Source: a virus. From it: DNA of 64,000 nucleotides. The DNA is taken from the IMG/VR virus record IMGVR_UViG_3300046328_000221, positions 30,046 to 94,045 of that record. One strand, written 5' to 3'. The translations under genes were made by a program, and so were the position numbers. The notes beneath the pieces were generated by a model, which saw nothing but the letters and a program-made list of their open reading frames with translations, was not told where the DNA came from and made no database searches. Within the stretch, counting starts at the first letter, position 1. Each line of letters starts with the position of its first letter. Positions 5,303 to 55,086 of this stretch are shown here, in pieces.

Positions 5303-5748
5303 TGATATGCGAAACCACAGACTTTATGTACCCACTCCTTGCGGATATTTACTATCCAATAGTTGAGCAAGGTGGATTTGGCAATATCAAAAAGCAATGG
5401 ATTCTTGACAGAACCGTTGCCTGCTCATTTAATCCAGCTGGTAGAAAATTTAAGCAAGACCTTCAGATTAATCCAAATATTACACTAGACAATATCCTTG
5501 TTGGTAGAACAAGATCTGATATCCTATCTTCAAATCGTGAAGATCTAAATGCTATGACTAATGTTATTATTACAAATATTCGTGATAGATTTGGTAATAG
5601 GATCTATAATGAGTCATCTGGTATCCGTAAAGGAAAGTCCACAATCTTTGAAATTTCAACCTTTAGTCCAATTGTTGGAGCCTTTGGCTCAACAGAATAC
5701 TACAAGATTGTCCTAGCTCGTTCAGAAAACCAGGGTGCTGATATTTAA
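5302..5748 (+). CDS. Probable head-closure (stopper) protein
   Basis: 148 residues, translationally coupled on both sides (TAATG). Its length and its position second after the capsid gene fit the small beta-barrel stopper that plugs the connector channel. Visible sequence includes FGNIKKQWILDRTVACSF and a YYKIVLARSENQGADI end. Assignment rests on synteny. Confidence 0.5.
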   Translation: MICETTDFMYPLLADIYYPIVEQGGFGNIKKQWILDRTVACSFNPAGRKFKQDLQINPNITLDNILVGRTRSDILSSNREDLNAMTNVIITNIRDRFGNRIYNESSGIRKGKSTIFEISTFSPIVGAFGSTEYYKIVLARSENQGADI

Positions 5749-41637: not shown

Positions 41638-41817
41638 ATGAATGAAATTGACAAAGAAGAAGTCTGGGAATGGCTTCAAATTGGAATTGACAAGGGATGG
41701 GTCACAGAACCATTCTGCTATACCCACGATGGGGATCCTTACATGACAGAAGAAGAGTCTCAAGAGTGGGAAGAAGGCGGAGATCCATGCTCACCAGTAC
41801 TCAAGATCCTAGCCTAG
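41638..41817 (+). CDS. Small acidic protein, leaderless
   Basis: 59 residues, beginning MNEIDKEEVWEWLQIGIDKG, with many Glu/Trp and one pair of Cys (positions 27 and 51). Start fixed by the promoter 6 nt upstream. It overlaps the HNH-like gene by 31 nt. Function unknown; similar short proteins occur in phage middle operons. Confidence 0.65.
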   Translation: MNEIDKEEVWEWLQIGIDKGWVTEPFCYTHDGDPYMTEEESQEWEEGGDPCSPVLKILA

Positions 41818-42218
41818 ATAAATATTGGAAGAAGCTTTGGCGTAATGTCAATATGTCTTCTACCCATGGTGCTGCAGGAGCACGTACAGATAATAATCCT
41901 AAGTTGCAAGGTCGTATCCGCAAGGGTAACCAATCAACTAGCTATCATGAAGTTAGCATTACCCTAGATGATCTAAAAGAACAATGGAACAAACAAAATG
42001 GCAAGTGCTACTGGCTTGGCATTGATATGAGTCTTGAAGATCTTATGATCAGTCGTTCACCATTTGCACCATCAGTTGATCGCCTAGATTCATCTGGACA
42101 TTATACAAAAGATAATATTGTACTAACATCACGATTTGCTAATCTTGGTAGAGGTGCATATGCTGGAGAAGATTTCAAGGAAAGACTTGACAAACTTTTA
42201 TCAGTCGTGTATAATTAA
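41787..42218 (+). CDS. HNH-like endonuclease
   Basis: 143 residues. The start at 41787 has GGAG 7 nt upstream; the longer frame to 41697 overlaps the small gene fully and is rejected. The core WNKQNGKCYWLGIDMS, then PSVDRLDSSGHYTKDNIVLT and SRFANLGRG, follows the HNH pattern of homing-type nucleases with Asp-Arg in place of the first His. The 3' end contains the promoter of the tRNA region. Confidence 0.7.
   Translation: MLTSTQDPSLDKYWKKLWRNVNMSSTHGAAGARTDNNPKLQGRIRKGNQSTSYHEVSITLDDLKEQWNKQNGKCYWLGIDMSLEDLMISRSPFAPSVDRLDSSGHYTKDNIVLTSRFANLGRGAYAGEDFKERLDKLLSVVYN
42187..42215 (+). promoter_or_regulatory. Consensus promoter TTGACA-N17-TATAAT for the tRNA region
   Basis: Both hexamers are perfect and the spacer is 17 bp. 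It lies inside the end of the HNH-like gene, 20 nt before tRNA-Asn. This is one of the two full consensus promoters noticed. Confidence 0.88.
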
Positions 42219-42235
42219 AACTCACAATTAAATAT

Positions 42236-42308
42236 TGCCCTATAACTCAATTGGCAGAGTGACGAGCTGTTAACTCGTAAGTTCCTGGTTCGAGTCCAGG
42301 TGGGGCAG
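42236..42308 (+). tRNA. tRNA-Asn (GTT)
   Basis: 73 nt without encoded CCA. Acceptor TGCCCTA/TGGGGCA; anticodon stem ACGAG/CTCGT with loop CTGTTAA, giving GTT; T-arm CCTGG/CCAGG with TTCGAGT. Confidence 0.92.
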
Positions 42309-42319
42309 CTAATGGTTCA

Positions 42320-42358
42320 GCCAGCACCACTCTCAGAGAGACAGAGATAAAAGCTGGC
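42320..42358 (+). other. Self-complementary spacer between tRNA-Asn and tRNA-Gly
   Basis: GCCAGC at the left pairs with GCTGGC at the right, with CTCTC/GAGAG inside. It may be a processing signal or a small RNA. Confidence 0.5.
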
Positions 42359-42361
42359 AAT

Positions 42362-42432
42362 GCGTGTGTTGCATAATGGTAGTGCCTCATCCTTCCAAGT
42401 TGAAGGTGCCAGTTCGATTCTGGTCACACGCT
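42362..42432 (+). tRNA. tRNA-Gly (TCC)
   Basis: 71 nt. Acceptor GCGTGTG/CACACGC is perfect; D-stem GCAT/GTGC; anticodon loop CTTCCAA (stem TCATC/GTTGA with one U-U mismatch); T-arm GCCAG/CTGGT with TTCGATT. No CCA encoded. Confidence 0.85.
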
Positions 42433-42433
42433 C

Positions 42434-42602
42434 TATAGGTTAATCACCTATACGTGTACAAGTGCACGTAAAATTGTCAACGCTTGTTGCTGTCCAGGCA
42501 GTAATTAATCTGGCGTGTAAGCACCTCACGACATAGGTTCGGAGTTGGTCACTCGTCTTAGGAAACGACTCAGGGATATAGATCTGATTAATCTGATATC
42601 CC
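42434..42602 (+). other. Non-coding stretch with several hairpins
   Basis: No ORF of note. Perfect or near-perfect hairpins: TATAGGT/ACCTATA (42434-42452), TACGTG/CACGTA (42451-42470) and GGGATAT/ATATCCC (42573-42602). Around 42540-42570 a D-arm-like GAG-TTGGTCA-CTC is followed by an anticodon-arm-like TCGT-CTTAGGAA-ACGA, which could be a decayed tRNA-Leu(TAG). No full cloverleaf could be built. Confidence 0.5.
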
Positions 42603-42606
42603 ACTA

Positions 42607-42675
42607 GGATAGATAGTTTAATAGGCAAAACGGCGTTGATCAGCCAGATTGGGAGTTCGACTCTCCCTCTATCCA
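42607..42675 (+). tRNA. tRNA-like fold with shortened anticodon arm, isotype unclear
   Basis: 69 nt. Acceptor GGATAGA/TCTATCC, D-arm GTTT/AAAC with GG in the loop, and T-arm GGGAG/CTCCC with TTCGACT are all canonical. The anticodon arm is only GGC-GTTGATCA-GCC (3 bp, 8-nt loop), about 4 nt short, so no anticodon can be read safely (TGA or GAT are options). It may be a decaying or specialised tRNA. Confidence 0.55.
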
Positions 42676-42678
42676 CGA

Positions 42679-42732
42679 CTTACACCTGCAGTTCGTAATT
42701 GTTCGGCACCTCGCAAGAGATTAAGTTGTAAG
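42679..42732 (+). other. Self-complementary spacer
   Basis: CTTACA at 42679 pairs with TGTAAG at 42727. It separates the two tRNA-like folds, as do the other spacers in this region. Confidence 0.45.
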
Positions 42733-42767
42733 CAAAAAGGTTGGTCCACCCTCGTACGAGAACGGCT

Positions 42768-42847
42768 AGGACTCGCTCTCAGGGCATCGTCGAATGAGAG
42801 TAGCCAGCTCCGTATGGTGCGTGGAGGTGCAAATCCTCAGAGTCCAC
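42768..42847 (+). tRNA. Degenerate tRNA-like fold, isotype unclear
   Basis: GGACTC/GAGTCC acceptor core (6 bp), D-stem TCTC/GAGA with an oversized 15-nt loop, T-arm GAGG/CCTC with loop TGCAAAT. The anticodon arm is GCCA-GCTCCGTA-TGGT, again with an 8-nt loop and no U33 in register. Probably a pseudo-tRNA or a tRNA-derived structural RNA. Confidence 0.4.
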
Positions 42848-42850
42848 AAA

Positions 42851-42919
42851 CAGAATTACTTCACTTATAGTCCGCACTATAAGCTATTAGGATTCTGGGC
42901 TATGGCTGATCACCATAGC
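42851..42919 (+). other. Two hairpins before tRNA-Asp
   Basis: CAGAAT/ATTCTG (42851-42897) encloses CTTATAGT-CCGC-ACTATAAG, a perfect 8-bp hairpin. GCTATGG-CTGATCA-CCATAGC (42899-42919) is a perfect 7-bp hairpin with a 7-nt loop. No gene. Confidence 0.55.
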
Positions 42920-42925
42920 TATTTT

Positions 42926-42999
42926 GTTTCTGTAACTCAGTTGGTTAGAGTGCCACCCTGTCACGGTGGAAGTCGTGGGTTCAAGTCCCATCAGAGACG
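42926..42999 (+). tRNA. tRNA-Asp (GTC)
   Basis: 74 nt. Acceptor GTTTCTG/CAGAGAC (one G-U), anticodon stem CCACC/GGTGG with loop CTGTCAC, T-arm GTGGG/CCCAT with TTCAAGT. No CCA encoded. Confidence 0.92.
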
Positions 43000-43000
43000 C

Positions 43001-43075
43001 AAAAAGTGGTGAAGTGGAGTATGTTGCAACTAAACTCTTCGTAAGAAATCCAGTGATGCTGGACATCCACTTTTT
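43001..43075 (+). other. Structured spacer between tRNA-Asp and tRNA-Thr
   Basis: Perfect 9-bp closing stem AAAAAGTGG/CCACTTTTT, enclosing GAGT/ACTC and the hairpin TCCAG-TGATG-CTGGA: a three-way junction. It exactly fills the gap between the two tRNAs. Confidence 0.6.
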
Positions 43076-43077
43076 AT

Positions 43078-43151
43078 GCTACCTTAGCTCAGTTGGCCAG
43101 AGTTCCTCACTTGTAATGAGGGTGTCATCAGTTCGAATCTGATAGGTAGCT
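43078..43151 (+). tRNA. tRNA-Thr (TGT)
   Basis: 74 nt. Acceptor GCTACCT/AGGTAGC, anticodon stem CCTCA/TGAGG with loop CTTGTAA, T-arm ATCAG/CTGAT with TTCGAAT. No CCA encoded. Confidence 0.93.
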
Positions 43152-43205
43152 CCAATTAGTGGTAAAATTGATGTGTAGATAAAGTCTACGTATTAGGAGG
43201 AAATA

Positions 43206-52727: not shown

Positions 52728-52804
52728 TGGTACTCCCAGTGAGACTTGAACTCACACTGAATTGATTTTAAGTCAACTTCCTCTGCCGATTGGGATATGG
52801 GAGC
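52728..52804 (-). tRNA. tRNA with TAA anticodon (Leu), class I shape
   Basis: 77 nt including an encoded CCA. Acceptor GCTCCCA/TGGGAGT (G1-U72), anticodon stem GTTGA/TCAAT with loop CTTAAAA, T-arm GTGAG/CTCAC with TTCAAGT. The variable region is only TCAGT, whereas bacterial tRNA-Leu normally has a long variable arm. Confidence 0.82.
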
Positions 52805-52805
52805 G

Positions 52806-52879
52806 TAGTGCGAGAGGGATTTGAACCCTCATAGGCCACCTTATAAGAGTGGTTCATTGACCTGTTATGATATCGCACC
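52806..52879 (-). tRNA. tRNA-Ile (TAT)
   Basis: 74 nt. Acceptor GGTGCGA/TCGCACT (G1-U72), anticodon stem CCACT/GGTGG with loop CTTATAA, T-arm GAGGG/CCCTC with TTCAAAT. It reads AUA directly; most bacteria use a lysidine-modified CAU tRNA. It starts 7 nt after the dNMP kinase stop. Confidence 0.85.
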
Positions 52880-55012: not shown

Positions 55013-55086
55013 TGGCACCCCCTCAAGGAGTCGAACCTTGGCCCTCAGTTTTGGAGACTGATGTGCTACCGTAACACTTAGGAGAT
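55013..55086 (-). tRNA. tRNA-Trp (CCA)
   Basis: 74 nt with encoded CCA. Acceptor ATCTCCT/AGGGGGT (two wobbles), D-stem GTGT/GCAC, anticodon stem TCAGT/ACTGA with loop CTCCAAA, T-arm CAAGG/CCTTG with TTCGACT. One base separates it from tRNA-Tyr. Confidence 0.88.

Follow-up and report, generated by a model that had tools for sequence, protein, structure and literature searches.

With a probability of roughly two in three, the tRNA array of the virus analysed here is an RNA operon whose polycistronic transcript is cut at its tRNAs and tRNA-like units, so that independent structured small RNAs are set free. The array is located in a stretch of 64,000 nucleotides (hereafter, the window), which is part of the 94-kb record of an uncultured virus. 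Its units are arranged in strict alternation (Asn, F1, Gly, FA, TL1, W2, TL2, F9b, Asp, F4, and Thr; Table 1), the tRNAs and the two tRNA-like units TL1 and TL2 being interspersed with RNA elements belonging to families that recur in related viruses. In the region 42236–43154, ARAGORN recognized tRNA-Asn, tRNA-Gly, one unassignable tRNA, tRNA-Asp, and tRNA-Thr.

Table 1. Features of the tRNA array and of its promoter (positions in the window).
Feature	Position	Strand	Description
Consensus promoter TTGACA-17-TATAAT	42187–42215	+	12/12 match; 20 nt 5' of the first tRNA (tRNA-Asn)
tRNA-Asn(gtt)	42236–42309	+	ARAGORN and Rfam, 64.3 bits
F1 RNA	42310–42361	+	H-type pseudoknot, inner hairpin, A-rich ATAAAA loop; 35-sequence alignment
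tRNA-Gly(tcc)	42362–42433	+	ARAGORN and Rfam
FA RNA, ~170 nt	42434–42606	+	Conserved core GGTTCGG-GTTGGTCACTCGTCTTAGGAAACGA; 5' hairpin, 3' 11-bp hairpin; 16-sequence alignment
TL1 tRNA-like unit	42607–42676	+	Truncated anticodon arm; Rfam tRNA 46.7 bits; unassignable by ARAGORN
W2 RNA	42677–42768	+	CTTACA/TGTAAG stem; homologs in L114, L022, L018
TL2 minimal tRNA-like unit	42769–42848	+	Acceptor GGACTC/GAGTCC, T-arm GAGG-TGCAAAT-CCTC; 6 loci
F9b RNA	42849–42925	+	CAGAAT/ATTCTG stem with inner hairpin, then GCTATGG-CTGATCA-CCATAGC hairpin
tRNA-Asp(gtc)	42926–43000	+	ARAGORN and Rfam
F4 RNA	43001–43077	+	Three-way fold closed by AAAAAGTGG/CCACTTTTT; near-identical copies in relatives
tRNA-Thr(tgt)	43078–43154	+	ARAGORN and Rfam

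Genomic Context of the Array

The beta subunit of the viral ribonucleotide reductase is 76–79% identical to its Mycobacterium and Gordonia phage counterparts and, on the basis of this resemblance, an actinobacterial host is likely. The promoter that the first-pass annotation had placed at 42187 is indeed a perfect one, and promoter-like sites with at least 11 of 12 matches are enriched upstream of tRNA-Asn in relatives (20% of 82 vs. 2.7% of random stretches). The same annotation had proposed that one long precursor is transcribed from this promoter; this idea agrees with the promoter as well as with the strict succession of the units, so that the genes of the array might be co-transcribed. 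An HNH-type endonuclease ORF (41697–42218) is located beside the array, with the promoter embedded in its 3' end, and other ORFs of this type are located next to or within the arrays of L003 (4436–4880), L182 (1161–1630), and L193 (568–1008; L numbers designate the loci compared). The minus strand carries three further tRNAs (Leu, Ile, and Trp) outside the array (52728–52879 and 55013–55086).

The possibility that the spacers are ordinary terminators or attenuators was rejected, since terminator-like sites (one was found) are no more common than in shuffled sequence. The Rfam scan of the window retrieved no known ribozyme or riboswitch, and the spacers were accordingly rejected as members of these classes. 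As for GOLLD, ROOL, known ribozymes, and Y RNA, no match in the window exceeded the gathering score and none was credible up to an E-value of 5, nor did Rfam match them in the arrays of the relatives. A weak YrlA match in L015 (26.2 vs. a cut-off of 69) overlaps tRNAs.

Related Arrays and RNA Families

Two conserved neighbour genes, one on each side of the array, brought about 160 further loci into the comparison. The same Asn-Gly-Asp-Thr array is present in about 80 related viral contigs, where its genes are separated either by bare spacers of 3–5 nt or by modular structured RNAs, and the order Asn-(Met)-Gly-Asp-(Glu)-Thr is syntenic among the relatives. In L002, most of the spacers consist of a few bases (5 nt between Gly and Asp, 3 nt between Asp and Thr), and the junctions that are bare in this contig hold recurrent elements in other ones. 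The existence of bare arrays implies that the inserted RNAs are not needed for the maturation of these tRNAs. In L060 and L063, 15-nt spacers form simple hairpins.

Ten families, whose boundaries were set by nucleotide HMMs, were named (F1, F2, FA, F4, F5, F6, F7, F8, F9, and W2). Five of them (F1, FA, W2, F9b, and F4) are represented in the window, while F2, F5, F6, F7, and F8 were found in relatives; nine out of ten have no Rfam match, F8 being the known manA motif. The first-pass annotation had described an alternation of tRNAs or tRNA-like units and hairpins; it had missed that some units are degenerate tRNAs and that the spacers represent recurrent RNA families, one of which, in relatives, is a described motif. 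Of the 72 distinct arrays that represent the lineage, 56 contain at least one family element, and every element lies on the strand of the tRNAs; many of these contigs are close relatives, and the counts of arrays and families do not represent independent events.

The elements fit tightly between their neighbours. Measured over 120 elements, the distance to the neighbouring tRNA or tRNA-like unit is in most cases 0–2 nt on the 5' side and 0–5 nt on the 3' side, some 3' gaps being longer (22 and 45–159 nt). Elements of the same family follow different tRNAs: F1 is located after Asn, Met, Gly, and Asp; FA after Asn, Gly, and Asp; F6 after Asp, Gly, Asn, Trp, and TL1; and F7 after Asn and Asp. Since each of the larger families occupies several slots, the element and the tRNA must have been exchanged independently. 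The combinations of families also vary from array to array. Direct junctions between two such RNAs are rare, the one clear case being L018, where manA and W2 are 6 nt apart; in L051, 111 unassigned bases exist between manA and F2. Where two RNAs have no decoding tRNA between them, a degenerate tRNA-like unit is usually present.

Structure and Covariation of the RNA Families

It had been claimed that every spacer checked is bounded by inverted repeats. The four pairs that had been named are exactly present (GCCAGC at 42320 and GCTGGC at 42353; CTTACA at 42679 and TGTAAG at 42727; CAGAAT at 42851 and ATTCTG at 42892; AAAAAGTGG at 43001 and CCACTTTTT at 43067), whereas the spacer 42434–42606 is a multi-helix RNA with no terminal inverted repeat, and F1 is a pseudoknot rather than a simple hairpin, its TGGT/ACCA helix crossing the GCCAGC/GCTGGC stem. 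Compared with dinucleotide shuffles, the predicted folding is stronger for F1 (z = −2.9), F9b (z = −5.0), and F4 (z = −2.2), but not for 42434–42606 (z = −1.35) or W2 (z = +1.5); nested folding of the whole array gave z = −3.0. Minimum free energy (MFE) alone is thus insufficient as a proof of structure, as FA and W2 do not pass, and it is the comparative evidence, i.e., the changes observed in F1, FA, and W2, that settles the question of whether the structures are real. The expected covariation across relatives was indeed found, with abundant compensatory changes in F1 and FA and paired changes among the four W2 sequences; F4 displays none because its copies are near-identical.

F1 comprises 45 distinct sequences, each about 52 nt long. 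In an alignment with 35 members, its three helices (TGGT/ACCA, GCCAGC/GCTGGC, and TCTC/GAGA, of which the first crosses the second) are paired in 97.1% of the cells, with both-sided changes in 11 of 14 pairs, vs. 32–48% pairing with slid partners. Searching with a regular expression that also demanded pairing retrieved 36 distinct matches, vs. five in shuffled sequence. Nearly all of them start 3 nt past the end of a tRNA; the copy of L013 is located instead behind a tRNA-like unit, and the match at L114:4746 is an isolated exception, probably due to chance. When 20 whole records were scanned with the F1 covariance model (R1), a home-made model whose E-values are rough, 12 of them yielded one or two copies; no copy was detected in the four named phages that were searched. 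Five exact-pattern matches in bacterial genomes were discarded as chance occurrences, the model giving them 9.5–10.8 bits or no score.

Across the 16 FA sequences, three helices with 22 pairs in total are paired in 97.7% of the cells, and 12 of the pairs changed on both sides; no Rfam match was found for this family, and no copy in the named phages and bacterial genomes searched. In F6 (13 sequences), 32 pairs are paired in 92.8% of the cells and 17 changed on both sides; they include a candidate pseudoknot, CTGAAC/GTTCAG, whose sequence is nearly invariant. The helices of FA and F6 were taken from the same sequences on which they were scored, which favours them over slid versions; the shuffle control agrees (0/500). 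On the whole, the covariation of F1, F6, FA, and TL1 lies well above both slid and shuffled controls. The search of the named phages retrieved no F7 and one weak F6 match, located inside a coding gene and rejected.

The homologs of W2 in L114, L022, and L018 show the paired changes CTTATG/CATAAG and CTTATA/TATAAG, so that its support consists of four sequences, with a nested MFE no better than that of shuffles. F9b is supported by two sequences, the homolog L038:8247–8324 carrying compensatory changes. Near-identical copies of F4 are present in L022, L177, L182, and L191, always at the Asp-Thr junction, and the folds of F2, F5, and F7 come from consensus only.

tRNA-like Units

TL1 exceeds the threshold of the tRNA covariance model (46.7 vs. 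29 bits) and recurs in 13 aligned sequences, adjoining inserted RNAs. All of them have fully paired (100%) acceptor, D, and T arms, in which paired substitutions occur, and their anticodon arm, instead of the normal 5 bp and 7-nt loop, has 2–3 bp and an 8-nt loop (17–19 nt vs. 22). The loop is not conserved in L049 and L053, and a decoding role of TL1 is unlikely. TL2 (42769–42848 and five relatives) has retained only the acceptor stem and the T-arm, with the T-loop TGCAA[AC]T; the sequences of its acceptor stems differ among the six loci and yet remain paired, i.e., they covary. It is known that RNase P and RNase Z recognise the acceptor/T-arm stack, and for this reason both units appear to be equipped for cutting. 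Devoid of a working anticodon arm, they probably owe their existence to the need for a place to cut between one small RNA and the next.

The manA Motif in tRNA Arrays

F8 corresponds to the orphan RNA manA of Rfam (RF01745), with 61.8–75.8 bits vs. a cut-off of 55.2 in nine relatives (L015, L018, L042, L047, L050, L051, L182, L184, and L190); the covariance model gave no match in the window or in its 94-kb record. The motif was described from 5' UTRs and rated as a possible riboswitch (PMC2864571). In the arrays of the relatives, its position is not that of a 5' UTR or cis-regulatory element, manA being located between tRNAs, and the same is true of the isolated Rhodococcus phage Francesca, where it lies between tRNA-Met and tRNA-Lys (72.9 bits). 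In Streptomyces phage Alone3, a full-length match below threshold (47.8 bits) is located between two tRNA-Lys genes, and in cyanophage S-SSM7 manA ends at the base directly 5' of tRNA-Gly. In P-SSM2, it is located away from tRNAs, 15 nt before the purL coding sequence, that is, in a 5' UTR; therefore, manA at least can live in an mRNA leader. The closeness of manA to tRNAs is frequent, not universal.

Other gaps of these phages deserve mention. Five unannotated inter-tRNA gaps of 120–230 nt in Francesca (L193; 1081–1259, 2954–3096, 3181–3406, 4242–4406, and 4482–4603) probably hold more structured RNAs, and gave no match to the families found here. In Alone3 (L197; 4643–6229 and array gaps), the tRNA array is accompanied by a gene for a Ro-like RNA-binding protein and by several long unannotated gaps. 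In Synechococcus phage MA10 (L198), a wcaG RNA (73 bits; 5628–5730) is located between protein genes, with no adjoining tRNA.

Proposed Mechanism and Alternative Explanations

On the basis of the sequence features described above, it is possible to propose that transcription from the host-type sigma-70 promoter would produce a precursor starting just 5' of tRNA-Asn. RNase P would make the 5' cut at every tRNA or tRNA-like fold; past the discriminator base, the cut would be made by the 3'-tRNA enzyme (RNase Z or an equivalent). The two cuts would free the intervening small RNA with almost no trimming; the abutment of 0–5 nt is consistent with such a release. The freed RNAs (F1, FA, W2, F9b, and F4, and in relatives F2, F5, F6, F7, and manA) might be stable and act independently, in trans, in the infected cell.

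Roles in the takeover of the host or in counter-defence are thought likely only because the set of RNAs swaps rapidly between relatives, as cargo genes do. A more specific version, which we advance tentatively, is that the array is an exchangeable cassette of small-RNA cargo, in which TL1 and TL2 are kept purely as sites for RNase P and 3'-tRNase, and that the freed RNAs, manA included, are directed in trans at the host or its defences instead of functioning as riboswitches.

It had also been suggested that the hairpins may direct processing or, alternatively, be stable by-products with their own role. According to the first idea, in its broader form, the spacers would help processing or folding, by insulating the tRNAs, recruiting RNase III, or protecting 3' ends, and would then be discarded. 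The elements are indeed structured and located exactly between tRNAs, and some are simple hairpins, such as the 15-nt ones of L060 and L063; nevertheless, relatives such as L002 mature the same tRNAs with bare spacers of 3–5 nt, the same element is found behind different tRNAs, and what has been conserved (unpaired motifs, invariant loops, elaborate pseudoknots, and multi-helix folds of 170–190 nt) would be superfluous for an insulator. Moreover, a manA-like RNA is found outside tRNA arrays. Overall, processing aids appear improbable, and by-products with their own role fit the data better.

Even less probable is a mobile or hitch-hiking nature of the elements, in which the HNH endonucleases near the array would have spread them as insertions that spare the tRNAs by landing between them. 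The presence or absence of elements in otherwise syntenic arrays, the occurrence of one family in different slots, and the HNH-type ORFs beside or inside arrays (41697–42218 in the window, L003, and gene 94 of L193) might suggest it; on the other hand, the covariation reveals selection on RNA structure across a large divergence, Rfam retrieved no ribozyme or known mobile RNA, and no repeats flanking the elements were seen by eye. Lastly, it is very doubtful that TL1 and TL2 are pseudogenes, i.e., decaying tRNA genes whose alternation with the RNAs is a by-product of tRNA loss, since decay is expected to break stems, whereas TL1, even though it retains a tRNA sequence with a shortened anticodon arm, keeps its paired arms and a constant short anticodon arm in 13 sequences, and TL2, a second form that is reduced in a different way, has acceptor stems that covary.

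Comparison with Known Systems

The release of small RNAs at tRNA borders, as proposed above, resembles the punctuation of mitochondrial transcripts, where tRNAs flank other RNAs and release them from a polycistronic transcript. Mostly mRNAs and rRNAs are freed there; here, the RNAs bordered by tRNAs, and presumably released, are structured noncoding RNAs of a phage, and non-decoding tRNA-like units take part. In phage T4, two small RNAs of unknown role (RNAC and RNAD) are made from the tRNA region (PMC3014915). T4 has two such RNAs, in contrast with the ten families described here, which are swapped between sites and separated by degenerate tRNA-like units. GOLLD and ROOL are structured phage RNAs of unknown function encoded near tRNA islands (PMC12286853); they share with our elements the proximity to tRNAs, but are far larger and cage-forming, and Rfam matched them in none of the arrays scanned. 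Similarly, manA is shared as one of the inserted families, with the difference that the motif is known as a candidate riboswitch of 5' UTRs and is here located between tRNAs.

Given the T4 small RNAs and GOLLD/ROOL, RNAs in phage tRNA arrays are of a known kind. The novelty lies in how many families there are and in their exchange, in an alternation that is close to strict, and in the presence of non-decoding tRNA-like units; a search of the open-access literature, which leaves aside most subscription journals, found no report of this arrangement. A single genomic locus has yielded nine structured RNA families without Rfam matches and a simple rule for discovery, i.e., reading the gaps in phage tRNA arrays. 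It also offers a natural case of tRNA-like units apparently kept for a non-decoding purpose, and shows manA, a riboswitch candidate, in a setting that is new for it. These data suggest that phage tRNA arrays may double as delivery vehicles for small RNAs, an idea that is testable in isolated phages, e.g., Rhodococcus phage Francesca.

Strongly folding inserts with no second family member so far are present in the arrays of L018 (7865–8029), L102 (2791–2919), L004 (4722–4795), L012 (11087–11163 and 11239–11334), and L042 (5918–6085). In L003 (4015–4101), L044 (7623–7709), and L102 (2704–2790), the tRNA-Asn is unusually long (87 nt), with an extended arm, and the 85-nt spacer between tRNA-Glu and tRNA-Gln of L053 (8245–8329) resembles a tRNA-Tyr overlooked by ARAGORN.
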